Shown here: one piece after another, positions 1 to 48,030 of the stretch
Numbering within the stretch: position 1 is the stretch's first letter
Layout: every line of letters starts with the position of its first letter
Assembly: GCA_003024785.1 (NCBI GenBank)
Contig: PUQB01000780.1
Coordinates: forward strand, 35,735 to 99,734
Direction of reading: 5' to 3'
Source: Selaginella tamariscina
Taxonomy: Eukaryota > Streptophyta > Lycopodiopsida > Selaginellales > Selaginellaceae
DNA length: 64,000 nucleotides
Translations under genes and position numbers: made by a program
The notes under the pieces: model-generated
What the model saw: only the letters and a program-made list of their open reading frames with translations
What the model was told of the DNA's origin: nothing
Database searches by the model: none

Positions 1-531
1 ATAAACCAATTAACTTGAGGTTAAAGTTCATAAGTCTAGAAACTCACTTTCTAAAGTTAGCTGAAAATAACACATATATTCGTCCATTGTACTCCACCGA
101 AAAAATATCCATGAGTTGTGCATAGCAAACTTCACCTGCATGGACAAAAAATTACACTATTTACAACATGATATTAACTTCAAAAAACATGCCTGTGTTG
201 TCAGGGTCTTGTGTCACCATTGTACTGCCTGACTTGAAGATTGTTCCACGAATACAAATAGCTTTGTGTCCAAAGCATTCCTGGTTCATAATTCCAGTCG
301 CCTGGAACTCCACTCCTATAAGGCGTGCAAGTGCTTCCACCTGCAATGTAGAAATATGCTTGCCTTTTTGCCGGGTTACAAGGACTCCTGTCTCTGAAAT
401 CCTTCTCCCCAATCTCTAGAACCCATGTCCATACATTGTTTCCATACCTCCATAGCTAAGTCTTTGAACTTACCACAACTATTCCATTTTTCACCAACAC
501 CTTCTCCAATGAACCTGTAGAAATTATGCAC
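1..531 (-). pseudogene. Unrecognised coding fragments left of the giant element
   Basis: Two minus-strand open stretches are visible. One runs from about 560 to 397 and contains FYRFIGEGVGEKW and LAMEVWKQCMDMG, ending in a stop near 397. The other, in a different frame, runs 412-161 and contains HISTLQVEALARLIG and GTIFKSGSTMVTQDP. No family is recognised. Because the other side of the proposed element (14.2-17 kb) also codes on the minus strand, this could be the severed C-terminal part of that transposase-like gene. That is inference and was not tested by alignment. Single frameshifts make it a relic. Confidence 0.3.
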
Positions 532-650
532 GTTGTAACTTAAAGTGGGCATGATACGTGAAAATGGGAATATAAAATAAATTACTAATTAATACTTAAG
601 TTTTAATTATTAATTAATCATTTAATTAATATGTAATTAAGCCTTAAATA
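532..650 (+). repeat. Left terminal inverted repeat and subterminal AT-rich zone
   Basis: The core GTTGTAAC lies at 532-539. After about 26 bases the sequence becomes AT-rich and follows the left half of the MITE at 21638 closely (shared GTGAAAATGG/ATGAAAATGG, GGAATATAAAA, TAATACTTA, TTAATTATTAAT). Confidence 0.6.
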
Positions 651-831
651 TTAATTAATTAATTAATTAATCCTTCAATAACCTTACTTAGTAAGGAATA
701 TTCCTAAAATATCTTAGAATATTCATATTATTCTAAAAATAGTTTACAATAATGAAGAAATACTATCAAACATAATTACAAATGAAATCATTTTCTTATC
801 AACATGTTAATTTTTTATAAATACTTTCTTC

Positions 832-2000
832 CTAACCATACAGAGAAATCTTCCTCATTTTGTCTAAATCATCACTCTCCGGATTAATCAAATCATTTTG
901 GTCAATATCTTGATGTTGTTGCCACCACTTAACACTCTCACGAATGCAATTGGGAGTTGCCATCCTTGTTAATACATAAGATGTAATAAGAAAGGTCTGC
1001 ATAAAGGCTCATCTAAAAATGACGTTCCTTAAGAATAATATTATAAAGCGCCCGGTTGCTATCCTTCATTTTATAAAATTCAAAATCACGAGAAAGAAAA
1101 GCTTCAGGAAATGTTGATACGGTGGATACTGCTCACAAAAATTTTCGAGATTCTTCTTTCTGAGGCACGTATCCAAGTAGTTCACTAGCTCATCCATGAT
1201 ATCGGTATCAGAATATGGATCGAAAGTGATTGGATGAATACAAGCAATGTTTTGGTTGAGCATAGCCTTCTGAGGAGAGTCGTCTACACTAAGATATGTG
1301 TTCTTCATTATCCTTAAGCGACTGATCTCCCCATGAGTCCCAATTATTCTTTCATTCTTGAAGAAGTATGGCTTGCTTTCCTTTCTTATATTGTGAAATT
1401 CGAGAGGTTTATAACATATTCGCTGGTCAAAAATCCAATCTTTACGAATCACCTCTTCTGCAACACTACAATGTTTCTTAAGCAAATTCAACAGCGGTGT
1501 TAAGTTATGAATCTGCATGCATGACCAAATCCCCACAAGCGCACCCATCTCCTTAAGCTTTTGAAAGAGACGATCCAACCCTGGACGAAAAATAATATCA
1601 TATCGAAATTTACCATGACAAGGAATGAAATCTCCTTGTTTGATTTCTTTTTTCCTATCCTCGGGCCTTTGTCGATGAAGCAGAACACCATTGACATCCA
1701 ACAACACAATATGGCCATGAGTAACATGGATAGCGTTGCCTCTTGAATACTTTGCAAATCACTTGTTTGCTCCCTTTCACATTTATCCGTTGCCACTATC
1801 TCGTTGCCTATCCCTTCATCATTTAATTGTACATCATCCTTACAAGATTCAGATATTGCATGCGCTGAAGAAATTGATTTCGGAACTGAAGCCAATAAAA
1901 ATGATGATGAAAAAACTGAAGTGGCCCCCATGGTAACGATGTTTTGAGCTGCATTATTATCCATTTCCTGCATGAACTCTGTCATTCTGACATGTGGCAC
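832..2000 (-). pseudogene. FCP1/NIF-like HAD phosphatase relic
   Basis: Residues encoded from about 1740 down to 1066 give a recognisable FCP1-homology (CTD small phosphatase) domain. Motif I is VLLDVNGVLLHR, in which the second Asp of the usual DxDx(T/V) is Asn. A mid-domain WSCM follows, and the acidic motif is LSVDDSPQKAML. Known members dephosphorylate phosphoserine on proteins such as the RNA polymerase II CTD. The Asn substitution suggests weak or no catalysis, although DxN variants exist among plant relatives. An acidic, Ser-rich N-terminal stretch (2000-1740) lies in another frame, so an indel or unseen intron is needed. Near 1110 the frame shifts again to PEAFLSRDFEFYKMKDSNRA. A last exon (about 966-832: CIRESVKWWQQHQDID...DKMRKISLYG, then stop) may complete it. 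It lies just downstream of, and in the same direction as, the ParB-like gene. Confidence 0.55.
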
Positions 2001-2254
2001 AAGAAATTGTCGCCAAACCCCTCTCTTACCTCATGCCAATGCTGAAAATCCATGTTCTCAATTGTTTCATTACATCTGCAAAATGATAATTAGCTGACCT
2101 TAAAATTATCAAGGTATATTATTTACCTTGTTAATGTGTGACCCATGTTTGAACTAAAAGCTTCATTAATCCTTGAGAATTTATTTTCTGTACAAATATA
2201 AACGAAATATACAAAAATGCCTTATGTTACACTCATTTACAACTATTCGTCACT

Positions 2255-5200
2255 CTAAGAACTCATTAACAATTCTTCTTCGCTATTACCTTCTGAGTGA
2301 GGCGAAGAAGGTCTAAGCCGCTTGTGAGATGGTTCAAGATCTTCTGTATCTTCTTGATGTTTCCATGGGTAATGGAGTGTGTGAATGTTCTGTACTCCTC
2401 GAGATAACTTCCGGTCTAATATCTGATTGAAGTTCGTCTCAGACTCCGACATTGAACCAGATTCGTCTTCAGAGCTATCGCACTTATCTGGAGGGAACTT
2501 TCTCAAATACTCCTTATGGTCGTTGGGGTAGTCAGTTGAGAACCTATCTATCCACTTGTTCAGGTCCTCAACCATGGTCTTATCCTTTTCAACGGCAAAC
2601 ACACATGTATCCGAAGGTAACACTCCTTCAAGACGGACCCCCTAGTGCAGTAGTCAAAAACCCACGCATCACTGTGAGGACCCCTGATCAAGTTGACGAT
2701 GCTCCGTGCCGCTTGACTTGATGTTTGGATAACGTACATTGCCGAATACGTCACTCTCACCTATCGGTGTATCGGATGGAGGTTCAGGGCCGTTGGAGTG
2801 CAAACAGATGCCTGGCCAGTCATTTGGAAGTTTGAAATTGTTTGGCGCATTCCTAACAACCAAGTGAACAACCGAATCAATGCACTTCGGATCAGCATCA
2901 TTCATATAAAATCCTGTCCAACGATGTTTATTCTCTTGGCAAAGGAGAAGGCAAAGGTATCGGTGACATGAGCAAGAATCAAGAAATAAATACCTGAAAA
3001 CGTAGATATCAGTCAAGAGTGCAAGTATGAATTCAATAATAAATACCTTCTTTGTACATACTTGCACGGCTAAGTTTCTCCACCAAATCCTCTAGTGTCC
3101 TGTCTGTCGAAGGATTTTTTGACACCCGCCGATCCATCACGAACAATTGAAACGGTTTCCTACAAGCAGTGATGTACCCCATAAAGTCTCCGAATCCAAC
3201 AACAAACATCTGTAGGGCTTGTCGTGATTCGTAGCATCCTCCTTTATAAGGTTCAACTCGGTTCTCCGCTGCTGAAGGACTGCCATAAGAGAAGGCGTCA
3301 TCGCAATGTTCTCCTTTTGGCGTTGGCGTGCAATAGATTCTTGCCCAGATCTTCCGATTGATTCACCCATTCGACAAGCATATCATCATTTGTCACATGC
3401 AAATATTTGCTGACCTCTTCGTATGTTGAAGCCGATCCAACCCAGTTTGTGGCAGTGTATTCCCAACCACTCCTTGAAGTGCCTGACCGTCTTCAACTCC
3501 ATTGCCTTGAGATGAAAAGGAGAGGTGGGCTGCTGTTGTTAATCTGTATTTGCCATCAATCACCAAATCAGCCAAGACTTCCATCTCCTCCATCGTTGTT
3601 CCATTTAAAGGCTTCAACCATGTGAGCTTGAAATCGTTGTCTACATCCTTTATAGATTGAACAGACTTAGCCTTCGGCGTCTTACTGGGTTTCTTTGCAG
3701 ACTTCTCTGAGGGCTCCACTTCACTTGTCTGCTTCTTCTTCAGTGTTCCTTTTGCAAAGGATTCCATAATCCCCAACCATTTGGCAAAGATCCTATCCTC
3801 GGGACAAGAAATCAACATCATCAAAAAGGATGTTTCCTTCCCGCCCACCTGGGCAAAATCAACTGCTACAATTTCTTCAACTCTCTGAAAAAAAGACAGA
3901 TTAATATACCGGCGAGATAAATCCCGCCCAAACAATTTGCTTACCCGGTAGTCCGCAGATTGTGTATTCCCTGCGGTAGCTCTTTGTGGTCGCTGAAGAG
4001 ATTCCCACACGGCTCGCGTGTGTTTGAACTTCTCCCATATTTTGCTGTTGTAGTGGTTGGTGTTGCAGCGTCCCATTCCGCCGATAACTTATGGTACTGC
4101 TCGATTGTGAGATTCGGCTTCGCTAAAAACGCCGATCTTTTCGTCAGCTTCTCACGGGTATGCTCGGAAAGTTTTGTTGCCATCGTTCCTTTGTTGTGTT
4201 CGTCGAGAAGTCGTTGGGCTGCCGTTATTGTGTGCTGGCCACTAATGATGTAGTACTTGATTGATCTATTCTCCGTCTGAACCTTCCTCATTTGTTCCGG
4301 TGTTGTGATCCACACTTTGTCAGCGCCTTTGTTCTCTCGTAGTATGCGCACAAAACAGCATTATGTGGAACGGTGTAAGAATTGTCGTCCTTCATCTTCT
4401 CCATGAGCTCAGCTACACGTTCCTGATTGAGTGGCCTGTAATTGAAGTTTGGGTTGACGCTGCAATACTTAACCCTACACTCGTAAATCCTATCATCCAA
4501 CATCATTTCCTTGTGGCTTATTGCAGCATGGGATGCCACAGGTGCAGCTGACAAAACGACGATGATTTTCTTCTACGATCCGAATCAACATGTGTGATCC
4601 CCGATTGATGCTGTTCTAATGTTCTCGGCACACTCTTCCAGCTCCCGAAATTTGCTAAGCAAATTGAACGTGATCTGTAAAGAACCTGAGACCAAGCCAC
4701 CCTCTCAATCTCCTTATGATGTCGCTGTGTTCTTCTTCAATGTGAAGAGGGAAGATTGCTCCACTTGTGGATTTTCTGTATTGTGAAGCAATATCTCCTG
4801 AGAATACACCTACTCGATGAGTCTGAAGATCTTCGAAGTAGACATCCAGTTGGATCCCCTCCATAGATGGGCTTTCGTTGAGTTGAAGAAGAACTCCAGG
4901 TCAACATCATTAGTGAACACGTGAACGTCATTATCCACAAGTCGACAAAACCACCCGAAATTAATGTTGTAACTGGCGACCTCTGGATCCGAGAACGTGA
5001 CATTGGATGGAACAAGGCATATGTGTCGAGCATCTTCAATCTGGGTTCGCAGCATGCTTTCGGATGCTTGACTAGCACACCCACTTTCCATTGTTTTGCT
5101 TGTCCATGCGATGTGACAGAGGTTAGTTTGACAGCAACCATGGTTGTTCCAATGCGCTTCCCGTTTAGTTTGAAATATGGCCAAGTTGATTCCAGAATCC

Positions 5201-5380
5201 CCCTGCCCATCTCTTCTCCTGCTCTCGTCTTTAATGTCACCTCAATTCCACATCTGAATACAAAAATGATTAGTTCAAGCACATATCCGAGTATAACAGA
5301 TTTTATTTTAATTCTTACCCAGAATTTGACGACGACTCCATACTAATGACTCGATCTCCTTGTTTAATTAAATCGTCCTT
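2255..5380 (-). pseudogene. ParB/Srx-like domain protein with possible DNA-methylase fold
   Basis: A long minus-strand gene is reconstructed from shifted frames. The 5' exon (5380-5319, KDDLIKQGDRVIS) joins across a 65-bp GT-AG intron (5254-5318) to CGIEVTLKTRAGEEMGRGI, a module also found in the gene at 10.6 kb. From about 4500 to 4180 a ParB N-terminal/sulfiredoxin-like domain follows: FNYRPLNQERVAELMEKMK, later YYIISGQHTITAAQRLLDE, resembling the RPL..R..L and G.H...A motifs. A Lys/Ser-rich linker (about 3750-3650) comes next. Near 2700-2580 WVFDYCTRGSVLKE and CVFAVEKDKTMV resemble motifs I and II of a SAM-dependent DNA methyltransferase. ParB-methylase fusions are known from phages and bacterial mobile elements. 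A Glu/Ser-rich tail ends at 2255. At least three single-base shifts are needed, so it is probably dead. The methylase reading is tentative because no clear DPPY/NPPY was seen. Confidence 0.5.
3885..3944 (-). other. 60-bp GT-AG intron containing one palindrome copy
   Basis: On the minus strand, CCGG|GTAAGC...TTTTTTTCAG|AGAG delimits a 60-nt intron, a multiple of three without stops. Splicing joins SADYR to RVEEIVAVDFAQ. Inside it, at 3911-3928, is GGCGAGATAAATCCCGCC, a two-mismatch copy of the palindrome that forms the arrays at 5.7 and 9.7 kb. Confidence 0.6.
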
Positions 5381-5483
5381 CTGCAAAATAATACACTATG
5401 AATACAAATCATATAAAAACGCACACACACTTGTATAAACCCGAATATACAAAAATAATACACAGAGAGAAGTGGACGGAATT

Positions 5484-5567
5484 AACTGTCCAAAGCTCAC
5501 TTTGTGCTAGTGCAAAAGAAAGATAACATTTCTTTAGAACCACCACAAATGTGAGCTCTGGACAGTT
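5484..5567. other. Stem-loop, 23-bp arms
   Basis: AACTGTCCAAAGCTCAC (from 5484) pairs with GTGAGCTCTGGACAGTT (to 5567). The stem extends inward by TTTGTG/CACAAAT, leaving a loop of about 37 nt. There is one mismatch and one bulge. It sits upstream of the first visible exon of the ParB-like gene and next to palindrome array 1. It could be a transcribed hairpin (miRNA-like size), a terminator-like structure, or a small MITE. Confidence 0.5.
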
Positions 5568-5679
5568 TTACATAGATTCCTAGCTTTTACTCGAAATATT
5601 ATGATAAGATGATAAAAGTAAATAAAATGAGATATGCAACTTATATATACTAATACACATATATATTCATGGAAGGTGC

Positions 5680-6778
5680 GGCGGGATTAATCTCGCCACC
5701 CCTTCAATGCCTCCTGAAAGAGTGGGCGGGATTAATCTCGCCACCTTTCTGGAGGCCTTGAACGGGAGTGCGGAATTAATCTTGCCACCCTTCTCGGTCT
5801 CAGAGAGAACTGGCAGGATTTATTTGGCACACCCCTTCAGTGACTCCAGAAAGGCGGCGGGATTAATCTCGCCCACCATGTAAGGGATGGTAAATGAATC
5901 TCGCCACCCTTCCCAGTCTCTCCATTGGTATGTTGTAAACCTTTACGTTCAGACAAAACGTTTGGGATTGGTCCGACTCACCAATGGAGAAAAAGGAAGG
6001 GTGGCATTCACCCAACAGGCATTGAAGGCTCGGCGGGATTAATCCCGCCATCGCCCTAGCCGGGATTAATCCCCAGGCTTGCAACTGCGGCGGGAATCCA
6101 CTCGATCCGCGCAGGCAATGTGGCGGGATTAATCCCGCCACCCAGGCCCTTCACTCGGGCCTTAGTCAGCGGGATTAATCCCGCCGGACACCAATGCCCT
6201 GTGCAGAATTCGGCGGGATTAATCCCGCCGCCTAGGCCCTTTAGGTAGGCCTTTGGCGGTGGGATAAATCCCACCCAATTCTGCGCAGGGCATGCGTAGG
6301 CGGTGGGATCAATCTCGCTGCCCAGGCCCTTCACTTGGGCCTTAGTCAGCGGGATTAATCCTGTCGGACGCCAATGCCCTATGCGAAATTCGGCGGGATT
6401 AATCCCGCCGCCTACGCCCTTCAGGTAGGCCTTTGGCAGCGGGATAAATCCCGCCGATTCCTTGCAGGGCATGCGTAGGCGGCGAGATTAATCCCGCCGG
6501 ACGCCAATGCCCTATGCAGTATCCGGCGGGATTAATCCCGCCGCCTAGGCCCTTCAGGTAGGCCAATGGCGGCGGGATAAATCCCGCCCGATTCCGCACA
6601 GGGCATGAGTAGGCGGCGGGATTAATCCCGCCACCTAGGCCATTCACTCGGGCCATGTGCGGAGGGATTAATCCCGCCGCTCATTTGGCTAACCAAATTA
6701 CCTGCCTGAAATGGCGGCGGGATTAATCCCGCCGCTACACACGTCTCACCATATAGCGGCAGGATTAATCCCGCCGCT
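5680..6778. repeat. Palindrome array 1 (about 23 copies of GGCGGGATTAATCCCGCC)
   Basis: The 18-bp unit is a perfect palindrome. From 6122 to 6661 consecutive copies start at 6122, 6168, 6212, 6258, 6302, 6348, 6392, 6438, 6481, 6525, 6571, 6615 and 6661, an alternation of about 44 and 46 bp. This makes a higher-order unit of about 90 bp. Copies before 6000 are degenerate (GATTAATCTCGCC, GATTTATTTGGC). Spacers are themselves inverted modules, such as CCTAGGCCCTTCAGGTAGGCC-like and CCAATGCCCTRTGC/GCRCAGGGCATG. It is GC-rich in an otherwise AT-rich region. Reading frames through it give only GGINP/AGLIPP repeats and are not genes. Confidence 0.9.
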
Positions 6779-7190
6779 ACACACACACACATATATATAT
6801 GTATATGTGTGTGTAGGAGAGTGCGTGTATGTGCCAGAGATAGACAAATCAAATAAAATTATACAGATACACACACACACACATATATATGTATATGTAT
6901 ATGTATATACAGGAGAGTGCGTGTGTGTGCGAGAGATAGATAAATAAATAAAATTATATAGATACTGGTACACATAATATATGTATGTATACATAGGTAT
7001 ATATATATATATATATGTGTATATGTATATAGTGTGTATGCGTGTGTGAAACAAATAAAATCATACAGGTAAACAAACACACACACACACATATATATAT
7101 ATACAGGAGTGTGCATGGTGTGCGAGAGATACAATTAACAAATCAATAAAATTATACAGATACACACACACACACATATATATATGTATG

Positions 7191-7223
<33 letters not shown>

Positions 7224-7263
7224 AGGAGTGTGCGTGTGTGCGAGAAATAGATAAATAAATAGA

Positions 7264-7301
<38 letters not shown>

Positions 7302-7361
7302 ATGTATACGAGTGTGCGTGTGTGCGAGAGATAGAGATCTATAGAGAAGAGAGAGAGAAAA

Positions 7362-7435
<74 letters not shown>

Positions 7436-7560
7436 CTGTGTGTGTATATGTATACGAGTGTGCGTGTGTGTGCGAGAGATAGAGATCTAAATTATATTAT
7501 TAAGATACACACACATATAAATATATATGTGAATAAAAATAAATAAATAAACTCAAAGGA
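6779..7560. repeat. Compound CA/TA microsatellite in tandem units of about 90-130 bp
   Basis: Six to eight irregular units each contain an (AC)n(AT)n tract, then GAGTGTGCGTGTGTGCGAGA, then GATAGATAAATAAATAAAAT and ATACAGATACAC. A pure (TA) tract of about 70 bases lies at 7364-7430. All long open frames here are low-complexity artefacts. Confidence 0.85.
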
Positions 7561-8560
7561 GTGTGCGTGTGAGAAAGAGAGAGAGATCTCACCTGTGTGA
7601 GAGAAGGAGATTTCACTGTCGTCGCCCTACAAACCCTAGGAATATACTTAAACCTTAAAAGGAATAGAATATATATTAATCCTAATCAAATATTCCTTCT
7701 AAGAATATACTTAAACCCTAAAAAGAATAAACTATAAATTCGCCCTAAACGAATATTCTTTCATTATATTATCAGCGTGTGCGTGGGCGTGGGTGTATCA
7801 CATACACCCCAAGAATAAATATTATGCAAGGGTTTAACACGTGTGTGTCCATGAGAGTGTTAAAGTTTCACGTGCAGCAATACATATATACACACATAGT
7901 ATTATACACATAGACATACAATGTCATACATATTAGTACATATTAATATTAGAGAGACAGAGTACAAGATTATGTATGGTGTGTATGTATAAGAGAAGAG
8001 TGACAATACATATTATGGATCATGCATGGTGTGTATGTTTGAGAAAAAGAGACAGCACATATTTACATGGATCATGCATGGTGTGTATGTATGAGAGAAG
8101 AGAAAGAGTGTTAACAAATTAAATTCATACACAATGTCATTGCATATATTAGTACACACATATACATACACACGTGTATACACACAGACATACTTACATA
8201 TTACATGTGTAAATTCAATGTGTTACATAGGGTTTAGGGTTTAGGGTTTAGGGTTAGGATGGATCATGCATGGTGTTTATGTATGAGAGGAGTGAGTGTT
8301 ATACACAGATATACATTATACATATTACATAATATTATAACATCAGTACATATTATGGATCATGCATGGTGTGTATGTATGAGAGAAGGGATTATGCATG
8401 GTGACACTGTGTATGTATGAGAGAAGAGATAGAGTGTTAACAAATAAAAACCGTACACATTGCATATATTAATACACATATATACATACACACGTGTATA
8501 CACACAGACATACATATATATTACATGTGTAAATTCAATGTGTTACATACACACAGATTG
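7561..8560. repeat. Satellite-like tandem and direct repeats
   Basis: The motif GGATCATGCATGGTGTGTAT recurs at about 8015, 8068, 8262 and 8352, with variants near 7973 and 8393. A longer block at about 8095-8235 (GTTAACAAAT ... ACACACGTGTATACACACAG ... TGTAAATTCAATGTGTTACAT) recurs at about 8425-8555. Near 7630-7750 a unit with AAGAATATACTTAAACC is repeated. No gene is seen. Confidence 0.75.
8230..8258. repeat. Interstitial telomere-type repeat (TTTAGGG)
   Basis: Three to four TTTAGGG units, the Arabidopsis-type plant telomere repeat, end in a degenerate GGTTAGG. The run is far too short for a chromosome end and sits inside satellite DNA. Confidence 0.85.
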
Positions 8561-9720
8561 AGTACATATAGATCATACATGCGTTGAACATGATGTTTTC
8601 AATAAAGAAGCAACATAAAATTTCTTAACTTTGGTTTAGGGCAATGTGCATGTGTGTACATATGTGTCTTTGTAAGTGCTTCTAATGCGTGTGCACGTGT
8701 ATATATAAATTTATAATCATGTTTATATATAATATGTGCAAAACAAACATCGAATAATTAAGAAAATAATATTAATATACACACAATGACATAATAATAT
8801 ATGATTTTATCTAATATATAGCCATATATAGTTTTAATAATATATATTAATTTAATTGAGAAAATCCTATTAATATATACAAATGTAATAATTACTGAGA
8901 TAATTAAGAATAAAACTAATTTAATTATGATAATCAGGTTTAATATTGGAATATTCTTTCAATATTAAGAAAATAATAAAGAATATCCCATTAATAGTAG
9001 GAAATGTAAATTAATTACTCGAGTAATTAAGAAAATAATAATAATAAACAGACTATGAATATATTTTAAATGATACATAATAATATATCAATTTATTTAT
9101 TGTATTAGTTTATATATATATAATATAAACTTAATAATATATACTTGAATATTAAGAATGTAGAACAATTACAAAAACTTCGTAATATTAAACAGCTTGA
9201 AGCATTTGAATAACATTAAATGCAATTTTAAAACACTCATTGAAATTGGAGAGTATATATGTCAAACTGTCGGTTATTTGTTTCAACTCATCTTAAATTT
9301 TTTTTTCTGTTATTTTAAAAATTTTGAATTTCTGACATAAGTATTATTAGTCTGACATGTAAATTTGAAAATGCATTTAATTTCCCACTCAAATTCAGAT
9401 TTGGTTTTTTCTTTCCGGCAAGGGTTTCTTTATTTCTTTATTTTTCACTCTTTAGATTTTCTTTTTTCTTCTTAGTGATCAGCTCAGGAGCGACATTAAA
9501 TTGGGTGCGCTATTGTTTATAGGAAAGCACGGCGCCTTCAATGCTGTTTATAAGTAAGTATTATAAACAAATTTAGATATATTTATAAAGATTCACTCTC
9601 TTACATTCTCTTTTAAATTTTAGAATTTAGGGATTTAGAAATGCATTAGGATTACAATATATTCTGTTAGGGATTTATCCTGTTTAAATATACCTTTAAC
9701 TTAATATTCTCGGTTAGCCG
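8561..9720. other. AT-rich stretch without a recognised gene
   Basis: This is mostly AT-rich sequence with repeated AAGAAAATAATA and GAATATTC motifs. A T-rich stretch at 9300-9480 has no coding continuity. Nothing supports a gene on either strand. Confidence 0.6.
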
Positions 9721-9721
9721 G

Positions 9722-10436
9722 GGCGGTGGGATTAATCCGGCCATTTTTTTTCGCCTCTTTGAAGAGGTGGCAGGATTAATCCCGCCACCATATCTTTCAT
9801 AGCTATAACAGAATTAGTTCAGGCAATGCTTTTCCGCCTCTTAAAAAGAACAGCGAAATTAATCCCGCCGATAACTCTCTCAACTGATAATGATTTACTT
9901 GAATTTATTAAAAAGAGTTGTCGGCGAGATTAATCTTGCCAACCATTTTAGGAGGCAGAGAAGGGGTGGCGGGATTAATCTCGCCACTACTTCCCTATTT
10001 TAAATATTTGTGGGCACGATTCATCCCAAATCTCTTTGAAATCATAGTTTCGGAGAGAGTTGTGGGCGGGATTAATCCCGCCACTTATTCCCGTCGTCAG
10101 AGTTGTGGGCGGGATTAATTCCGCCGCCTATTCTCCGTCGTTAGTGTTGTGGGCGGGATTAATCCCGCCGACTTTCACAGACGAGGAAAATCCGGCGGCG
10201 GGATTAATCCCGCCGCTACTTCCTCCAACGAGGAAGAGGGGGTGGGATTAATCCCGCCCACAACACTGACGACGGAGAATAGGCGGCGGGATTAATCCTG
10301 CCCACAACTCTGACGATGGGGAATAAGCGGTGGGATTAATCCCGCTGACTCTCTCCGATGAGGTAGAGTCAACGGCGGGATTAATCCCGCCGACTCACTC
10401 TGAAGGGTAGAGTCTGCGGCGGGATTAATCCCGCCC
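9722..10436. repeat. Palindrome array 2 (about 14 copies of the same 18-mer)
   Basis: Copies start at 10065, 10108, 10152, 10197, 10241, 10285, 10329, 10374 and 10418, a spacing of 43-45 bp. Five weaker, irregular copies lie between 9722 and 9980. The palindrome is the same as in array 1, but the spacers differ (CCGTCGTCAGAGTTGT and its complement ACAACNCTGACGANGG). The last copy is about 150 bp upstream of the first coding sequence of the plus-strand transposase relic, so the array occupies its promoter region. Confidence 0.9.
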
Positions 10437-10583
10437 ATTAGTTATATTAATAAAGCATGAGATATTATCTTTATACATAATTATGTATTATTGCACATGC
10501 ATATTATTAAGCAACCGCAGTTATGATTTCTTAGAAATATTGTATAAACAAATATCATAAATAATACAATTATTTATGTGCAG

Positions 10584-13500
10584 GACAATATGTATAATAC
10601 TGGAGATAAAATATGTCTTCTTCGGAATAACGAGATAGTTGGCACTGGAACTGTGGAAGTTCGAGATGATAATGCATCATGTCACAATATTGCCCAAGGA
10701 TCTTGTGTGTACGTATGGGTGAACACCATTTTCAAGCATGTTGAGGTTCCTGGAATGGAATTTGAAGAGGGTTCTCCTGTATTGTGGAATTTGGATGAAG
10801 TCAAGGCTGACACAGAATATACAAAGTCACAAACAAACAGTAACATGAGTTTTCCAGATGATGGCTTGCCTGCTGTGATGGATGAGGTGATTCTCTTTCT
10901 TCATGAGATTGAGGTTGGGAGAGGCATCATCACAGCTATAAATCCAATGGAAGCAGTGTCAGAAAAGAAACTAGGGTCCGACTTCGTGGGTGTAGTTGTG
11001 ACAGAGGTTTCACCTAATGGCACTTTGCATCTTGGATCCCTCGTGAGGTGGCGAACATCTGAATTAAGACGGCAAGATGGTTCAACATATTCTGGGTTGG
11101 ATTTCAATAATAACAACTCGGAAGAACAACTCATATTTGAAGAGGTTCCTTGCATTGGTCCTATTGTAAGAAAAAGGCGATTCATGGGTTGCAGATCTTC
11201 CCCTGCATGTTTCAGCAAGAGGGTGAAGATGGATCCTACATCTTCCAAAAGTGTTACAAGCATTTCCATGATTGACTGCTGCAAGAAAAAGTGTTGTCAG
11301 ATGGCAGACCGGAATGAAATTATCCAATGTAGACATGTTTTCGTACGCTCACCCAAAAGCAAAGGCATGAGTTTGTATATGCTGCATTAACTGGGTGTAT
11401 TGATGGAATGGCTTTGGACACAGGTTATCAGAGTACATCCATGGTATTTAATAAGGTGGCCATCTGCTTCAAAGCTTGGTACAGTATATATGGAATCCCA
11501 AATACCACGTTCTACCGTTGGAGGGATGAGTGGCTAGATGGAGCGCGAACCTCAGTACATGGGAACACTCGCTTGGTCAAAACCTGCTCTCATATTATGG
11601 CAGCCATAGAGATACTCAAAACTTTTGTGAAATCAAATGCAGATAGGATGCCTCACAAATGCCGAACCACAAATGCAGGGGTCAGGGAAAATCTCAAGGT
11701 TTTGCCTTCGATCTACACTCAATTGAAGCTGTGTGAACATGTGAACAAGTGCCTCAGCTTGAAGGGGCTGCAAGCAATCTGCACTGGTACCTTCAACAAC
11801 ATATGGAATACTCATTTTAAGGATGTGGAGATTGCAAAACACTCTAGCTTTTCCAAGTGTGACACTTGTACATCATTGAAGGTTGTAGAGGCTTGTGCAA
11901 AAACCTTGGTGGAGATCACTACCATTCAAAAGAAGATAGAGCCCACATGATTGCTCAACAAACTTGCCGGTCTCAGTATTATGCACACCGCATGCTTTCT
12001 GTGTCATGCCCATCAGAGTACTTGTGCTTGATCCATGACAAGATGGATCATTCAAAGACAAGCTTTCAAAGCTCGTTGCAACACCAAAGTGCCTTGGAAA
12101 TGTCATGAAACTTCCGATTTCATTGACATGTGTGCTAACACATGGACACGGTTGTGAATCATATGGACACTTTTCACTTCCACATTGGTCTAGCGACTCC
12201 AATTTCACTATTGGGTCGTTGGCCATGTGTTTCAGAAACCTTGAAGCCCACTCACAGACAAGTCCTATCAGTGATCTCAAAGTGAAGAAACAACACCTTC
12301 AACCTTTACATAATGCTCTCATGAACACGTCTACACTTGAGGCTACTTGGGAATATGAGAGGCATTGTCAGCAACCTGCACAAAAAATAGATGGCCCTGT
12401 TGAGAGTTCAGGTTCAGTGGAGGGATCTAGCTCAAATAGTGTACATGTGTCCTGAACATCAAATAAGCTTCCTCGTCATTTGCTTTTACAGATGGATAAT
12501 TGTGCAGGCGAGAACAAAAATAGGTAAATCATTTTACTTAAGGGTTTCTCAAGCTCATACTTACTTTTATTTTTTAGATATGTGTTAGCATACTTGTCAA
12601 TGCTTGTTGCCAAAGGTGTGTTTGAAACAATCACGCTCAGTTTTCTTATGGTTGGTCACACTCATGAAGATATTGATGCGTTCTTCAGCAAGGTCTCCAA
12701 CTCTACAAAAAGGACAAGTGCACTTACCTTACCGCATATGATGAATCTTTTTGAAAATTGCATCTTCAAAAAAAGTTGTGCTTTGCTTGTGACTGAGGTG
12801 CCAGACTTCAAAAAATTTCTCAAGGAGTATATAAAAGAGGGGAGTGATTCTTTAGTTGGTCACCTTGTGTTGCTACAATTGTTTTTCTCCATACGAGATG
12901 GTATACCTATTATGCAGTACAAGTTACAGCCATCAGAGTAGGAGTGGTTACCAAAAGAGGGCTTAATGCTCTTCAAAAGTGGAGAGAATGGAAAGCCACT
13001 TCTCCCAGAAGGACAACCAGACCCTATTCCATTGAGTGCCCAGCTCAAGGAACAAGAGGTTATTATTGATGGCATCAAAAAAATATGTGGCATGGGTTCA
13101 AAAATCGATGCCAAAGAATTCTGATAAGGCAACTGGTTACTCAGAACTATATAAGCATGTGGTGGACTATTGGGAGACTGTTGTTCGAGAGTTGGAAGGG
13201 CCTACTGTCACAAGTACAGAATTGCAACACCCTTTTTGGCCTAAAACAAGGTGGCGAGAGGAGATTGAAATGACATCACTGAGCACAGACAACATAGAAG
13301 CCACTAGTGATGTGGAAGTGCAAACCCCACACTTTGTTGGACAAATGAACCAAAAACCTAAAGCATACTTTGATTGCTGCTAGGATCTTCAAAAACTAAT
13401 GATGGTTCTCATTACTCCAGATGCGTCATATAATTAGCCTATTTGGATGGGTCAAATTATCGACACACCTGAAGTAATCACAAAAAATAGTATTGTTAAG

Positions 13501-13707
13501 GTTGTATGGTTCAAACCACAAAAAAGGCGACACGAGAAGGAGAGCGAAAGATATAATGGATGCCTAGAGAAAACATGGTCTCCCAATCAAAAAGACCCAG
13601 CATATTTTATAAATGTTAAATCCATTCGATATGGGTGGATGTCAAGAAGCGTTGATAAAGTCACAATTAATAAAACTGTAAGGGAATGTATGTTTTCTGA
13701 AGCTTAA
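10584..13707 (+). pseudogene. DUF7869-type transposase relic with N-terminal DUF8039-like modules
   Basis: The visible coding part starts after a splice-acceptor-like TTTATGTGCAG at 10583. N-terminal residues form two similar modules: GDKICLLRNNEIVGTGTVEV...SCVYVWV, and VILFLHEIEVGRGI...DFVGVVVTEVS, resembling DUF8039. After a frameshift near 11341-11365 comes HEFVYAALTGCIDGMAL, an HTH-like stretch (NTTFYRWRDEWLDGA), FSKCDTCTSLK, CLIHDKMDHSKT, LLLQMDNCAGENKNRYV and FLMVGHTHEDIDAFFSKVS. These last motifs are typical of DUF7869 proteins, and the three acidic sites could be a DDE triad (inference). QMDNCAGENKN joins RYVLAY across a 54-bp intron (12524-12577). The C-terminus contains WMGQIIDTPEV and YNGCLEKTWSP and ends at 13707. 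Breaks include shifts near 11341, 11890, 12058 and 13078, and in-frame stops at 12453 and 12939. Confidence 0.7.
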
Positions 13708-14186
13708 AGCAATTACAAAATTATAAAATATATATATTTAATATTCATAATTATTATAAACTCTTTAATAATAGTACCAAATTGTTTACTTAACTATATA
13801 AATTTAAAAACGATATGGAAGATTGACTATATTATTATAGGATTTGTATATTATATATATATTATTACTACTACAAATTTTAATTAATAATGTTATATTT
13901 AAATATTAATATTTTAATAACAACATCAATATTTATATAATGTACCTCTTATGCTCTTCCTTAATTGTTATATTAGGCAATATATTATATAATTTAATAC
14001 CTTCTACTTTTATAATGTTATTAATTTTTATTCAATGAATGCTATAATTTATTAAAGGGTCGAATACAAAAAAGAATATTCTAAAGAATATTCTGTTTTC
14101 AAACATATATTCTAAAGAATATTCCTTTAATATTAGAAAATGCTAATTAAATAGCTAAAATTGCTAATTATTAGGAAATGGGACTA
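13708..14186. other. AT-rich subterminal region, no gene
   Basis: This is over 80% A/T by eye. Two AAGAATATTCT-type repeats (near 14073 and 14110) belong to the end zone shared with the MITE at 21.6 kb. Confidence 0.6.
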
Positions 14187-14211
14187 TAGCCATGCCCATT
14201 TTAGTTACAAC
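14187..14211 (-). repeat. Right terminal inverted repeat of the proposed element
   Basis: GCCCATTTTAGTTACAAC ends at 14211 and is the reverse complement of the left end apart from one A/T and about one A/G change. Upstream, AGGAAATGGGACTATAG matches AAGAAAATGAGACTATAG in the MITE at 21.6 kb. Confidence 0.6.
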
Positions 14212-17066
14212 TTGCATAATTAGTTTTATAAAGCTTTGATTAAGCATACGTCTCAAATGTTTTGGTGGCAACAATCCATCCCTTTCCAACATCATTTGCT
14301 CTTGAATGGTTGTAAAAACCCCCCTGCTTACACAAGTTGGTAAATAAGAAGATCCCATAAGTTGTAGAAAATAGAGTACGCACCTTAGATGGGTCTTCTT
14401 CGTGTACATCATTTCCATTTGTATATTGTTTGTCTCGGTTGCATTCAACACTTTGATTTGGACTCATACTTGTAACACCAAGTGTTCGCAGAAGAATCGA
14501 ACAAAAAAATATCCTCACAAATATGGCCTCGTCCGAACGCATGCATCAATACAGATTGATGAGGCCCAAATTTCAAATACCATAGAACCTCAACTGCGCT
14601 GCAAAGTTCCCGCATATCATCAAGTGTTTTGACAGTCCATCCGAAACTTCGACTCCAGTCATATAACAACTCCGTCAATAAGAAGTAGATCTTCATGTGC
14701 TCATTGTCAAGGAGGCCATCTACTGCATACAATGTCATTTGGTACCATTGTACAAAATGTTGGTGCTCCTGAGCTTGCCAAAAACCAAGCTGAGTCAATG
14801 GATGATATGGTCTGCGACCTCCCTTCATGATTGAGGTTCGATGTTGTAGCAAGGTCTTCATTCGTGATCTCAATATTTGCATGGTAGATTCCTTGCCTTC
14901 TTGTATTTTGTTGAATGTCTGCTCGTTGCACACTTTTAACACATTCAAGACACCACAAATGCATCACGTCAAATGTTGAAAACTCCAATAAATTAACTCT
15001 GAAAAGAAAAGTGATGAATTGGCTTAGAAAACTGTTACATGTTTGCTTACCCGTAAACATCAGCTAACTTGAGTAGCATGCTTGCACCACGTACTCCAGA
15101 ATCCCATTGGAATTTTAGCTTATGAGATGTGCTCGAGATTGTTCCTAGCACCTCAATCGCTTCATTGATCTCACGAACTGTCCGAGGTTGAGGTGGCTCC
15201 ATGGAATTCTGGAAAATGTCAGAATGTTTTCCATTGCTTCCCGTCCTGTGTAACTGGAGTCTTACATTTCCTACAACTGTTTTTGCCACCTGCATGGGGG
15301 ATAGCTTGTTAAAGACTTCCTTAAATGAAAAAAACCAGCATCAACGTACCACTCGAAAGCTTGAGAAGTTCACATTGTGCCGGATGGTCCGCAGCAACAA
15401 CTAGGAGCAAAGCCCTGAGACAAAAGTTTTTTGGCAACCCCCACATAGTGGTCAGGATCTAGAGAATAATCTACCTCCACCCTTCTATAAACAATGACAC
15501 AAGCTCCTCAATCAACAAGTTCATGAATGCATCCAGGCTGTCTGTCCCTGCTTCCCTTCGGAATGTACATGATTGGTAATGTTGCTGTAGAGTGTGCTGC
15601 TCCTTGCAAACCTGTATTTAGTACTCTAATGTTTAATGCTCCTGAACTCCTCTGTTGGTTCTGGCAGATTGAAATCCATCCCAATGAAGTTGTAGTGCCA
15701 AGTTCCTGGGGTCCCTTTGACTAGCCTTCGAGTAGCTTCAAAAATAGAATGGCATGAAGGGCATTTTACCTTGTACATACCATGTTGATCCACATCCACA
15801 CCATTCATGCACTCATTTCTAAATGGCCATTGACGTATGAATTCCTCGCAAAAGCAACACTTGATAGGAAGCTCAAACTCTTGATCAGGATCAAAAAACA
15901 CTTGATACTACCGCCATTTGCTACCTTCCCAAATCTTATTAATTTGTTCAGGTGGTTCGTGCAATGCTCTATGTTGCCACGAATCTCGCGCTCTCCAAGG
16001 CCTAAGGTCATCCCAGTATATGGATTTTACTTTGGATCGTAAAAGGAGTCGAGGACCCAAGGGAATGTAGTAAAAGGATATTGAGCTGCTAATACTTGCA
16101 CCACAGAATGAGCATTCCTCTTTGCATGTGGCACAATGATGAAGGGGAACCCTACATAAAACACAAATTGGTTGTGTCAATTCAAGGCATTTAACAAACC
16201 ACTATGTTAGAGACTTACCCGCACCCACACTGCTCATCACAACTGCTGAATGCAAAAGATGGAGTGTTTTTATGCAATTAGAAATCATGACGTCTTGGAT
16301 TTGGCATACCTAAGTTGCGCAGAGGCGATCTAGGGCACGTGAAGATCGTGGAACCTTCAAGTCGCCCCACCTCCCAGTCCAAGATGGGCACAAGATATGG
16401 GCTATTGTTGCTTCTCCTGTGCCGAACATTGCTTGCAAAATGTTTGTCCTCACTGCCTCTGAGACATGCCCATAATCAAACAAATGACATAATGAAATAA
16501 AAACCTCAACATCTGTGCTGCAATAGGTTGGTTTGGGACGGGAAGTTCATCAAATGCCAAAATATGCTCTTGATCATCTTCATTAGCCGAGTCAACACAA
16601 CAGCATCGAGCTCATCTTCATCTTCATGGTGTTGATCTTTATGAAAACTGTCATCTCCATTTTCCAAAGCCCCCATTATCAGCCCAAAGTTACAAACATT
16701 TTGCTGAGTATGAGAGACTTCTTCATGGCTCTCATCAGGCTCACTGCCTTCAATAATGTTTGTGTTAAACCTAGACTTGTATCTTGTGTGCAAGTGATTA
16801 TAGAAGCCTGACTTGCTGTAATGTTTACCTCCACTCCCAAACTGCTCAGAGCATTGTGAACATTGACAGACAAAGGCTCCACAAGGATCTTCATGATTTT
16901 TTGCACGGTTTGACTGTTCTCGTGTGTGCCATCGCCAGGCACCCCTTGTGACCTGCTTCCCATTGATTATGTACTCTCTACGCCTGGTCATGTTTTGCGT
17001 TGATGAACATGTTCTAAACATCAACTTAACGAAGTTTGTTTTAAGCAAAATGTGAAGTTCTTCCAT
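14212..17066 (-). pseudogene. Cysteine-rich transposase relic (KDZ/Plavaka, CACTA-like)
   Basis: Several minus-strand frames read as one protein from 17066 downward. REYIINGKQVTRGAWRWHT is followed by a C2H2-like finger (CQCSQCSEQF...HYSKSGFYNHLHTRY), then an acidic stretch. Next is a Cys cluster (PICVLCRVPLHHCATCKEEC, then CSFCGASISS), YYIPLGPRLLLRSKV, and a second Cys group (IKCCFCEEFI, VKCPSCHSIFEA). FDVMHLWCLECVKSV resembles the D-x2-H site of CACTA/Plavaka transposases. The last part is helical (WYQMTLYAVDGLL ... LWYLKFGPHQSVLMHAFGRGH). A 52-bp GT-AG intron (14999-15050) joins KLADVYG to VNLLEFSTF. Several indels break it. The family is inferred from overall layout and no single motif is decisive. 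Confidence 0.45.
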
Positions 17067-17233
17067 TAAAGGCAGGCGGGCACATTAATCTCTATACAAT
17101 GATTCCCGCGTTGTGGGCGGGGCTTACTTACGGATTTCAAGCTAAGAAGTACCTTTAGGTTTAGCATTTTGTTCTTTAGTGAATGTGGGTTTAGTTTATT
17201 CCATTTGTGCCCTCACTTCACTCAAATCGATAG
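17067..17233. promoter_or_regulatory. Divergent intergenic region with degenerate palindrome half-sites
   Basis: This 167-bp gap separates the start of the minus-strand transposase relic from the ATG of the plus-strand SAM-domain gene. It contains GGCGGGCACATTAATCTC (about 17074) and GATTCCCGCG (about 17101), which look like broken copies of the palindrome found at 5.7 and 9.7 kb, followed by TTGTGGGCGGGGC. No TATA box is convincing. Confidence 0.35.
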
Positions 17234-19023: not shown

Positions 19024-21637
19024 ATAATTGGACATTGAGATCTTCAAACTATTTGGAAGCATACTTCTACAACAGCCAAAAGAAAAAGTTTCTTTGATGG
19101 CACTCAAATCATTTGCAGTTGCTCACAACAAATCAGTGGTGCCAAAGTTTTTGCAATTACTGCATCTATGCGCTTTTCTGTTGCACTTAAGCATGTTGCA
19201 CAACGAGCCATATCCAGGGTGTGCTTAAAGTTGAAAGGCATGTATGGGATAACAAGAATTGGCAAACCCACACTGTCACTCTCAGTAGACTTTAGAATTT
19301 GGTGTATAGTTTTCCATCCATGAAAGCCACTTTGGTTCCTTTCTATGAAATATGGTATATATTCATGTTTGAAATTCAAACGATATATCCATTATGTTTA
19401 TGTTGCCATTTCGTGTTCAAATATCCACTATTTATTTCATAACATTGTACAATTCAAATCCATTATGAAAAACACCATGAGTTGTGCAACTACTTGCTAC
19501 TTTTGAAGCTACTCTACTATCACATTGTATATCATGGTCAAATCTTCACATTCATTTACACTATGGTCTTCACTTTCTAAACCACTATGTTTCATAGTCT
19601 TGAATGCCACTACTAGCATCAACTTAACATAGTGGTTTTTGTAAGTGGATAGTCCTGTCAACAGCCAAGTTACTATAATTCTGGCTTTCATGGCAGAATC
19701 CACCATCCGTGGCTCGTTGTGATAAAAGTAAGAAGAAAGGGAGAAAGATAGGGAGAGTCAAACAAGGGAGAGACTCTTCAAAGTCACACTTGGCATGATT
19801 GCAAGTGAATCAATCCACATGAAAAATTAACGCGGGGACAAGTACTATCGGGTATGTAACATCCGCGGGTCCCACAACATAGACAATTGACTTAGCACCA
19901 CTTACAAAAGATTAAAGCTCAAGCTCATGATTGTCCACACAAATGGCTATGTCAGTCCCATTTCGTGAGTGTGTTTGCTACCGTAAAGAATGAAGACTAT
20001 TTCGCCACACAATGTAAATGAAGACGGCAACATGTGATAACAAATTAAGAAACTTAAGCTTGTATTGACCAATACTAGAGGAAACATATCGTGTCATGTT
20101 ATGAGCATGACGCATTGTGTTATCAAATTGAGTTTAAAAGTAAAGACATGATGAATTGATGGCGAGTGAACCCCTTAATATACTCTTGAAAGAAAGGCAG
20201 AGGGGTCATCAACTTATTTGCACAAGGACCCTCATTTCCCAAAGATTCACTACATCACTACAACAGTTCAATTGGACGTTGTTGATGCCAAGATCTCCAC
20301 CTTAGAAATGGAGGTTGCCAATTGAGGGAATGTAGACAACACCGATACATGTGTGCAATCTTGTCAATCTCCATCAGAGCATGGCCATTCCCAATGTAAA
20401 GTGGAATTAGAGCACATGAAGCTGCATGTGGGAGAAGTAATGTTTCAAATCGTTATGCTAGCGAAGAGCATCCTCAAGGGTCACTAGAGCCAGTGCATGC
20501 ATAAGCCCCACAAAGTCCTAACAAAGTGTTACCATAACATGCCTAACTTAATTTGTTTCGACATGTTAAACTTTACAAAAGCAAGAGGCTATGAAAGCAA
20601 ACTCCCGATGGCTCCTAAAGAATACGATGCAATTAATCATAGTCATCACCATGCCCAAATATACATTTAAAGATGAAAGAGTACTCCAATTCTCACAAGT
20701 TGTTATGTCTAAACCATTGTACCACTGCAATACCGTCCCTTAAAAACAAGTAGGAAACTCGCATAAACAGTGAGTATCATTTCTAAAATGATATGTGACA
20801 ACCATTGTGAAGTGATCAAACCAATGATACACATCATCCTTAAGATTTTATGGAAGAAATTCGGTTGGACTCGAGGATTCAAAGCATGAGTATAAGAAGT
20901 AGCACCATGCCGTGAATGTTGCCACTAACTGAATTTAATTACTTAGTTGCACCTGCATACATATAACAATTGCATGAGGTATTGTTTCACAAACAAAGGA
21001 TTTGCCTGTTGCACATCCATGGACAAAAAGAGAGAGAATAGAGCTAGATTTATAAGAATGGAACAGATGTAGATAATGGAAATTTAAATATAAAAAGATA
21101 GAAGTTCTCATATTGGTGAAGGTGAGGGCATGTCTAATTGTCTATAATATGGAGCGTCAAATTTATGCCTTTTTGTTTAGATCTTGAAATTTGAATGTGC
21201 ATGCCATATTAGCCCAAAACCCTAGATTATATATAGGAAAAGTGGTTCAAATTGAAACCAATCTGATGGCTATCAAAATTTCATTATGATATGTACACAT
21301 GGACCTCACATTGTGAATCAATAATTATTAAAACTTATAAAGTTACATTAAAATTATTTAAATTTACTTTGAAAATCATTGCTACAATCCTTATAACTCA
21401 TTGTTAATCTTTTTATTAATATAATAAGTAAATTATGTTATGTAAATTTTAGATTGTACCTACACAAATGCAAAAGTAGTATATGTTATAAAAATATACT
21501 TCAGTAGTTATTAATATTAAATTTATACAAATGATTAGATCAAGTAAAAACAGATTTATTATCAATGAAATAATGTTATTGTTAGCTTATGGAGTAATAA
21601 CATATATGCACATTGTGTATGTATTTATATGTACAAC
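19024..21637. other. No recognised gene; one dispersed repeat fragment
   Basis: AT-rich sequence with only short open stretches (for example minus-strand 19379-19104) that match nothing recognised. The segment at about 20155-20260 (AGAAAGGCAGAGGGGTCATC, CTTATTTGCACAAGGACCCT) is the reverse complement of part of block R (about 47720-47800 and 60235-60315), so it is a third copy of a dispersed repeat. Confidence 0.55.
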
Positions 21638-21849
21638 GTTGTAACTAAAATGGGAATGATATATGAAAATGGAAATATAAAAAAAAAATTAATTTAATAC
21701 TTATATATTAATTATTAATATTTTAAATATACATTTTAAAAACTATTCTTTCTTTAAACATATATTAGTCTAAAAAATATTTCTTTATATTAAAAAAATG
21801 TTAATTATTAAGAAAATGAGACTATAGATATTTCCATTTTAGTTACAAC
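21638..21849. mobile_element. MITE, 212 bp
   Basis: The ends are GTTGTAACTAAAATGG (21638) and CCATTTTAGTTACAAC (21849), in an AT-rich body with no coding capacity. The left half matches 532-650 and the right half matches about 14060-14211, as expected for an internally deleted copy of the proposed 13.7-kb element. No clear target duplication is visible (flanks TATGTACAAC and GTTCATACAT). Confidence 0.7.
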
Positions 21850-22438
21850 GTTCATACATTGTGTATGTGTGTAAGCTATATATACACATTATTAACAGGA
21901 AAGTTAATAAAGATCTTGGTAAGTTTATAGAGAGTTTGGACAATAGACTTGAGAGTATGAAAACAAGTTAAGGGCTACTGATGTCCTCATAAAATGAAGA
22001 ACCCTAAAATGGTGGAGAGCTTGAGGTAAAAAACAAGTACATACATTATTAATAATTAATAAAATTAGTTTTTTAATGTGGTGTATTAATAGAATGTTAA
22101 TATATAAATGTTATTAAATTTTAAAAAACATATATATAAGTTTTATATAGATATAATTATAATCTAAATAGTCCCATCCTAAACTAGAAGTATTTTGCAA
22201 AAGGGAAGATGGTACGTGATGGCCAATGTTTACTAATGAATATAAATCAAATATAATAAATTCAATATAATTTAATATGAACTATGTAATGCTAAATGAA
22301 AGTATAATGGATTACATTCTCTCTATAACATATCTCGAACACATATTGACACACAAATATTTAATTGTTTAATTTTTTAAAAGTCTTTTTATATATTTTA
22401 AGATTAATACTAGAGCTAAGGTTTAAATGTGATCAAGC

Positions 22439-34894: not shown

Positions 34895-35860
34895 TGTCAG
34901 AGTTTTTACCTAGTGCCACAAAGGCGGCTTGCCAGGTGCCAACCCTAGAATCCCCTCTCGGAAACCCCATGGAACCTGGTAAAGTAACCCGTATTAGAAC
35001 CCAAGCCTTAGGAAGTCAAACCCTAGTTGACTAAGTCCTCGAACGAGACTCACCTTGTGAATCAAGATACACGGACTAACTAAGCTTTAGGTGTCGTTCC
35101 TAGCTTGGCGTGGTTGAGGCGGCCGGAGCAAGGCCTCAACCACTAGTTTTGCAGAACGTGAACTTGGGCAATGCCTTTGAGCTTGCGAGCAGGTTTTCGA
35201 ACCAAGGAATCTGACCAACTCCTTGGAAGTGACGTGCCCCTATCTCAAAGGCAAGATCCTGCCAACGATAAGGATAGTCTAACCCTAGGGGGGTTATACC
35301 CCTGTCGTGTGGAAGTTTGAGCGGCACAACGAAGGGTTGCACCTTGACGACACAAGCTTAGCTTGCATCGGTAGGAGGTTAACGAGCTCTCTTTTGAACC
35401 CAGGAAGCCTCACTACATATACTCTACCTTATTTATGTGACGGACCCCCCCCCCCTCCCCCTAAGTGAGTAAGTGGGCTAGCACGGAAATGCCAGCCCTT
35501 AGAGAAAATGGTTGTCCTAACCTAATCCTAAACCTAACCCCTAGGGGGGGGTTCAGGACGTGGGGTTAGGGCAACCCTAGGGTTAAGTCAACCCTAGGGG
35601 TGTCCCTAACCCTTATTTTGACAAGCTATAATTTGCAAAGAACCCTAACTTGGAACGTCAAAACGGGGGAGAGTTTCTAGAAGGTAAGTTCTAGCTTCGC
35701 CTAGAGTTTCCTGCAAATACCTAATGACACCCGGCCGGACCATCACTAGATTCCCAAGTGCACTAAACAGGCCTGTTTCCTACTACATCTAGGGTTCGTC
35801 ACACAACTCGGTAAGTAACAATAGTCAAACCCAAAGTAAGAGTCATTAAAAACTATGACA
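34895..35860 (-). repeat. 3' LTR of the chromovirus
   Basis: TGTCAGAGTTTTTACC to AAACTATGACA on the plus strand. It contains telomere-like runs (CCCTAAACCTAACCCCTAG-type) and a C run in CGGACCCCCCCCCC. A TATA-like TTATTTATGTGACGG marks the probable promoter. Confidence 0.9.
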
Positions 35861-35876
35861 CACTCCCCGCCTTGGA
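35861..35876 (-). other. Polypurine tract
   Basis: On the minus strand, CAAGGCGGGGAGTG immediately precedes the 3' LTR and is the plus-strand primer site for reverse transcription. Related fragments have AAAGGTGGGGTG (45.8 kb) and AAAGTGGGGAGTA (58.5 kb) at the same place. Confidence 0.75.
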
Positions 35877-36234
35877 AATGTCAACGTCCTCGTTGACGTC
35901 TAACTCCAAGACTAGATTAGGTTAGGAAAAATTAACTGAAAACTAATGCTAATCACTCTATGCGGAGTCAGCAAAAAGTTCACAAGTTTTATTACCCCCT
36001 TGCATTACGCGAAGCCAAATACTTCAGAACCGTCATTCACTAAGCAAGAACTCAGCTGCCGGAGGCACCACCTGCGACAAGAAGTCATTTGGAGACCTTT
36101 TGCACGTCTGTAAACTGTCACCTGACACAGACAACAAGTTAGTTAATTTCTTTAAGTTAACTAGAATTTATATTGGAGGCCTCTAGTTAAGGTTGTCTGT
36201 CGGCCCCTAGGTTAATAAGAAAAACTTTATTTCT

Positions 36235-40920: not shown

Positions 40921-41233
40921 CGTATTGAACCCTAGTTCAACACTCGGAGAATATGCTTGGAATATTCCCAATGTGAAGTTGGAAACACCCTGCACAGGTT
41001 GTACACCCACACACATCAGCTTAAACTAGCATAAGACTTTCGGACATACCTAGAATCTCACGCCGACTCACTGAGCAAGTGTTCTCCGAAGTTTGACAAC
41101 TCACAGGATCAAACTCTCTGCGCAGAATACAGACATGTCAACCGAAAGCAATAGAGTATATCAAGAATTTAGAGTTATCTAAACATTGAAACACCCTATG
41201 ACTTAAGGCAGTCCTACTGACCGCAGAGAACTT

Positions 41234-41247
41234 GCTCCGATACCAAT
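41234..41247 (-). other. Primer-binding site (tRNA-Met type)
   Basis: TTGGTATCGGAGC on the minus strand, one or two bases after the 5' LTR end, differs by one base from the common plant iMet PBS TGGTATCAGAGC. Confidence 0.8.

Positions 41248-47996: not shown

Positions 47997-48030
<34 letters not shown>

Follow-up and report, generated by a model that had tools for sequence, protein, structure and literature searches.

Arrays of an 18-bp palindrome beside the divergent genes of a DUF7869 transposon family in Selaginella tamariscina

The window analyzed here is a 64,000-nucleotide stretch of Selaginella tamariscina DNA (assembly GCA_003024785.1, contig PUQB01000780.1, positions 35,735 to 99,734 of the forward strand), with positions counted from its first letter. 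Near its left edge lies a DNA transposon of 13.7 kb (527..14216) with terminal inverted repeats (TIRs), of the form TGCA...TGCA. Inside it, between a large minus-strand gene and a plus-strand gene with a DUF7869 domain, are two arrays of an 18-bp palindrome, GGCGGGATTAATCCCGCC. Array 1 (5680..6775, 22 palindromes at up to 6 mismatches) is upstream of the minus-strand gene, and array 2 (9725..10435, 15 palindromes at the same threshold) is upstream of the plus-strand gene, a position it also holds in other copies of the element. The arrays are genuine and recur across the genome in one transposon family, and motif arrays serving a transposon's own regulator are already known elsewhere.

Up to 6 mismatches, the two clusters together hold 37 copies of GGCGGGATTAATCCCGCC. 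A preliminary description of this DNA had given about 37, a count that stands, and had divided them into about 23 and 14, where the two clusters remain and the numbers become 22 and 15. Up to 3 mismatches there are 33 matches, 32 in the clusters and a lone copy at 3911, as compared to 0 in 100 shuffles; the simulated chance expectation for the whole window is 0.03 matches at this threshold and 4.7 at up to 6 mismatches. The reported spacing of 43-45 bp in array 2 and of alternating 44 and 46 bp in array 1 (between 6122 and 6661) is mainly what is found, with exceptions of 71, 83, and 52 bp in array 2 and of 42, 55, 63, and 176 bp in array 1, where the palindrome at 6059 is out of register. Among steps shorter than 60 bp in other copies, 44-46 bp accounts for 77% in right arrays and 64% in left arrays. 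The same description had taken the step as about four helical turns, which does not hold, as 44-46 bp is 4.2-4.4 turns at 10.5 bp per turn. Phasing of the palindromes on the same face is thereby ruled out: neighboring sites are rotated by 85-95 degrees on average, about a quarter turn per step, so that successive sites share no helix face. Among the changes in the window palindromes, 37/51 are C>T or G>A, an excess expected if methylated cytosines had decayed. The right-array spacers of many copies often show another theme, for example CCTCGTCGGAGG or GACTC...GAGTC, which could be a further dyad under weaker conservation, and four TTTAGGG telomere-type repeats are found at 8228-8255 within the AT-rich stretch that separates the arrays.

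The left TIR (527..553, plus strand) and the right TIR (14191..14216, minus strand) were recognized by an inverted match of 522-553 to 14191-14221 with 90.6% identity over 32 bp, scoring 32.2 bits where the best of 60 simulated pairs scored 28.2. The left end is matched at 97.9-99.2% in 4 other copies, and the ends in other genome copies read TGCA-N-GTTGTAACT. Three other copies with both ends visible are about 14.8, 15.4, and 13.8 kb long, and the sharing of TIRs among dispersed copies (both ends in the window and in these 3) makes this a TIR DNA transposon. If ATGCA is counted as the end, AATT flanks the window element on both sides; the 3 other copies have no consistent duplication. At one locus (L061:2329-3022) two copies lie side by side, with about 370 bp separating the right end of the first from the left end of the second. 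At another (L064:2337-3976), a plus-gene fragment of the first ~208 residues is broken off directly before another palindrome array, as if a rearrangement had joined two copies of the element.

Left of the arrays come the unclassified minus-strand gene (2255..5341) and then a minus-strand gene for an NIF (FCP1-like) phosphatase (1066..1758; PF03031, E = 1.6 × 10−11), found also in 5 other copies. To the right is the DUF7869 gene (10590..13707, plus strand; PF25273, E = 4.9 × 10−26) with a predicted intron at 12523-12577. Both large genes have broken frames in the window copy; elsewhere in the genome, open frames across the DUF7869 exon reach 1,092 residues. The named DUF7869 relatives nearest to the plus-gene product are from mosses, Physcomitrium patens A9RIR0 and Ceratodon purpureus M758_UG068900, with 29% identity over 79% and 75% of the product and the motifs HDKMD, DN, and GHTH in common. 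A full-text literature search found no paper on DUF7869. Two by-eye likenesses in the minus gene were pursued and rejected: one to ParB around GQHTITAAQ, with no match in Pfam, NCBIfam, or solved structures (searches of limited sensitivity), and one of its C-terminal part to a DNA methyltransferase (DYCSRGSVLKECY), for which no match was found. The N-termini of both large genes are weakly alike, and weakly like the Transposase_23 (TNP1) domain. Single-sequence hhalign scores the minus N-terminus at 78.7% against the second plus repeat and at 0.4% against the first. The resemblance is weak and may serve as a lead only.

The 300.7-Mb genome holds 46,888 palindromes at up to 1 mismatch, and a reversed-pattern control 0. 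At ~25 sites per window copy, this would roughly amount to 1,200-1,900 element equivalents. Genomic placement was examined for the first 100 listed of the 46,888, all exact, on contigs C1 (in part) and C2. They fall in 12 stretches, and 12/12 carry genes of the element. Thus the search that had been proposed, for the 18-mer near DUF7869 genes, revealed no clusters away from the element among these 100 places (at up to 1 mismatch), and the claim of arrays between divergent genes of one element is borne out, as arrays recur beside element genes. From the other direction, 4,249 first-look DUF7869 candidates were reduced to 150 that were scored and to 20 copies on 20 contigs that were chosen, mostly with long open frames. 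All 20 have an upstream array, of 9-19 palindromes each. The motif around the start codon could be located in 17 of them, and there it follows the first base of the last palindrome by 159-162 bp. Array length across copies ranges from 9 to 28 units. Outside this genome, the IMG/VR database gave one contig with a single site, and bacterial genome contigs gave 49 stretches, with a single site listed in all but one (L012, with two). Searching viral contigs with the DUF7869 alignment turned up no encoded relative. A literature search did not find the 18-mer, found the 12-base core in one unrelated paper, and showed nothing on the element among the papers listed.

The question of what is being maintained in the arrays, the palindrome or the whole repeat unit, can be asked by comparing lineages. 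The 28 right arrays divide by their flanks into subfamily I (n = 19) and subfamily II (n = 9), which are ~10% apart in the unique 150 bp beside the array, and mostly less than 2% apart within a subfamily. They have one modal palindrome in common, with exact copies at 178/296 in I and 64/150 in II, and exact spacers common to the two number 0, from 92 and 79 distinct kinds. In 15/15 aligned between-subfamily pairs, the palindromes are 2.0-9.5% different and the rest of the array is 19.9-26.9% different, with palindrome columns defined from other copies. The left arrays agree less sharply, with 0.104 for palindromes versus 0.184 for the rest (21 pairs, one copy being badly alignable). By base class in 8 right arrays, minor G/C cells number 42/1008 in the palindrome arm, 51/456 in the flank, and 89/1024 in the spacer, and minor A/T cells number 4/384 in the core and 120/1384 in the spacer. 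Across 307 palindromes the core positions T8, A11, and T12 changed 0, 1, and 1 times (2/921 cells), and arm positions up to 44 times. The preliminary description had said that the palindrome is kept and not the whole unit, and had named as its refutation spacers as conserved as the palindrome within each array family. Between lineages the claim stands, and spacers so conserved were not seen between subfamilies; within 5 pairs described below the comparison does not come out that way, and the spacers are in part related to one another. Since arms and flank decay alike at G/C positions within subfamily II (4.6% and 4.7%), the constraint would appear to act on active lineages and not on inserted copies.

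The two subfamilies have one and the same motif amid noncoding DNA that otherwise diverges. This would also be expected if the motif were a site for a host transcription factor, for example one of cell-cycle or homeodomain type, multiplied by the element as an enhancer, with no element protein binding it. A promoter-proximal place before both genes fits such a site, and none of the element proteins has a recognized DNA-binding domain. We nonetheless regard a host factor as unlikely, because all 100 listed places are in element loci, and GGCGGGAT does not correspond to the known plant E2F consensus.

The spacers bring up a different possibility. In array 1 their order is a b c b' a b c b' b c b' a, where b' is inverted b, a mirror pattern read from spacer identities; 5671-5742 is an inverted relative of 9923-9994 at 82% identity, and large inverted repeats center on palindromes or on spacers. 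Therefore the arrays fold strongly as a single strand, far above shuffles (z = −32). Self-symmetry of individual spacers is weak (combined p = 0.0013 for 21 spacers that are not independent, using single-base shuffles, and weaker with dinucleotide shuffles). The mirror order, the inverted repeats, and the folding, along with an array length that varies so widely between copies, are what would be left behind if a self-complementary 18-mer were a template-switching hotspot that multiplies units in both orientations and homogenizes the palindromes, the arrays being a functionless, satellite-like by-product. We consider that quite improbable, given the constant place beside both genes at a near-constant distance from the start codon, the near invariance of T8, A11, and T12, and the matching lone palindrome in an intron.

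That lone palindrome (3911..3928) sits within a 60-bp intron predicted for the minus gene (3885-3944). Comparison of 6 copies found it identical in 6/6, but the same holds for most of the intron around it. Array 2 may also be intronic: by splice-site consensus only, a donor at 9554 and an acceptor at 10583 predict a leader intron of the DUF7869 gene (9554..10583, plus strand) that would span all of it. The acceptor is present in 17/20 other copies and the donor in 0/20, its position being outside most of the stretches compared. With both predicted introns containing palindromes, one could ask if these function at the RNA level, forming hairpins in leader introns or in transcripts that serve in processing or as a source of small interfering RNA. 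Pairing that tolerates G-U predicts more C>T than G>A changes in the gene sense. The right arrays have 42 versus 34, and the left arrays run the wrong way with 21 versus 38 (counts inflated by inheritance), so a hairpin constraint is not supported and we hold a role as RNA to be very improbable.

The explanation to which we incline, with modest confidence, is that the arrays are platforms close to the promoters, each with many sites for a protein, through which the element regulates its own genes. Both divergent genes have an array of their own a short way upstream of where the coding sequence begins. A dimeric protein would read the 18-bp dyad, and would be encoded by the element, by either of the two genes; assembly of this protein along the array would then control expression or silencing of the element genes, by analogy to TNPA in Spm/En and VANC in VANDAL. 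An element protein is the likeliest reader of the palindromes. We choose regulation over movement, partition, or a satellite because of the place before both genes, the conservation at the level of lineages, and a miniature inverted-repeat transposable element (MITE) that has no palindrome.

The multi-site platform of the preliminary description thus survives as a regulatory one, and the other roles offered for it fare less well. A centromere- or parS-like array read by a ParB protein is not supported, with no ParB match in searches of limited sensitivity against Pfam, NCBIfam, and solved structures. Transposase binding at the moving ends is not favored either, since the arrays sit 5.2 and 3.8 kb from the element ends and the MITE (21630..21860, ~230 bp) has those ends, with 81% identity to the element over 85 bp on the left and 82.5% over 63 bp and 77% over 75 bp on the right, and contains no palindrome at up to 6 mismatches in the one MITE examined. 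Hence the palindromes are probably dispensable in cis for movement. A 13-bp direct repeat, ACATTGTGTATGT, occurs near both sides of the MITE and may be a target-site duplication.

A number of observations weigh against a regulatory platform read by an element protein. The minus gene has no family match in Pfam and no relatives at E up to 10−3 or up to 1, and the Transposase_23 likeness of the two N-termini is below the Pfam cut-off (E = 0.12 and 0.023). Exact sharing of spacers is a strict measure, some spacers of I and II differing by a single base, and some array units are fixed degenerate variants. Core A/T positions are not clearly more conserved than flank A/T positions (4/384 versus 32/1360, p = 0.15), and the few A/T columns in the arms vary the most (6/40), these cells being non-independent. 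In 5 within-subfamily pairs (L064a-L068, L066-L067, L066-L068, and L067-L068 among right arrays, and L063-L065 among left arrays), the palindromes are slightly more different than the rest, and in a 180-bp duplication in the window a hand count found palindromes and spacers alike (9/72 versus 13/108). Gene conversion or template switching could homogenize the palindromes without selection.

For a regulatory platform, two systems of plant transposons provide working models, and on features tested the element belongs to neither. VANC-type proteins are DUF1985 proteins that bind their motif and remove methylation, and in the pieces searched there was no Pfam match to a VANC-type protein or to the Mutator-like VANA transposase. 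In the VANDAL anti-silencing system of Arabidopsis, the element's own VANC protein binds a short motif occurring as tandem repeats in noncoding regions (PMC5735166; PMC10398659). The likeness is in a motif repeated across noncoding regions of a plant DNA transposon, with a repeat structure that diverges fast between relatives. The VANC21 motif YAGTATTAY is 9 bases and non-palindromic as printed there, and the targets differ between VANC families (PMC5735166; PMC10398659), whereas here an 18-bp dyad is the same in both subfamilies, and the genes next to it are a DUF7869 gene and an unclassified one. The CACTA elements Spm/En, Tam1, and Tgmt* have many motif copies, partly stem-loop forming, bound by TNPA-type proteins that also regulate the element; the motifs are subterminal and are cis-determinants of excision (PMC2613891). 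The element resembles them in its many motif copies and in N-termini that weakly recall the TNP1-type domain. It differs in having internal arrays that are absent from the MITE examined, and ends of TGCA-N-GTTGTAACT and not CACTA/CACTG; its genes have no Pfam match to the TNP2/TnpD transposase.

Few systems are well documented in which a plant transposon regulates itself in a sequence-specific way. A tentative and rather doubtful extension is that the DUF7869 transposon of an early land plant has its own regulatory or anti-silencing system, evolved independently of VANC, in which an element protein occupies ~25-45 dyads before two divergent genes, with ~47,000 near-exact sites spread through a 300-Mb genome. 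If true, it would test the repeated origin of motif-array anti-silencing in land plants, and it would give the two genes of a DUF7869 element a suggested role. Because a small genome here has near-identical dyads by the tens of thousands, in two subfamilies that have one motif and different spacers, a single pull-down would allow the binder to be found.

Around the element, open frames at 126-455 and 14167-17084 on the minus strand had no Pfam match in the pieces searched, and could together represent a single older transposon gene into which the element inserted. The window also has a GH9 gene, which together with Ty3 elements and the TTTAGGG repeats marks it as plant DNA. Farther along the window are a Ty3-type long terminal repeat retrotransposon (34895-42219) with gag, protease, reverse transcriptase, RNase H, and integrase-zinc domains and direct repeats that are 94% identical, and a long direct duplication (45138-49683 and 57155-61490, 92-97% identity) with further relatives at 28042-29692.

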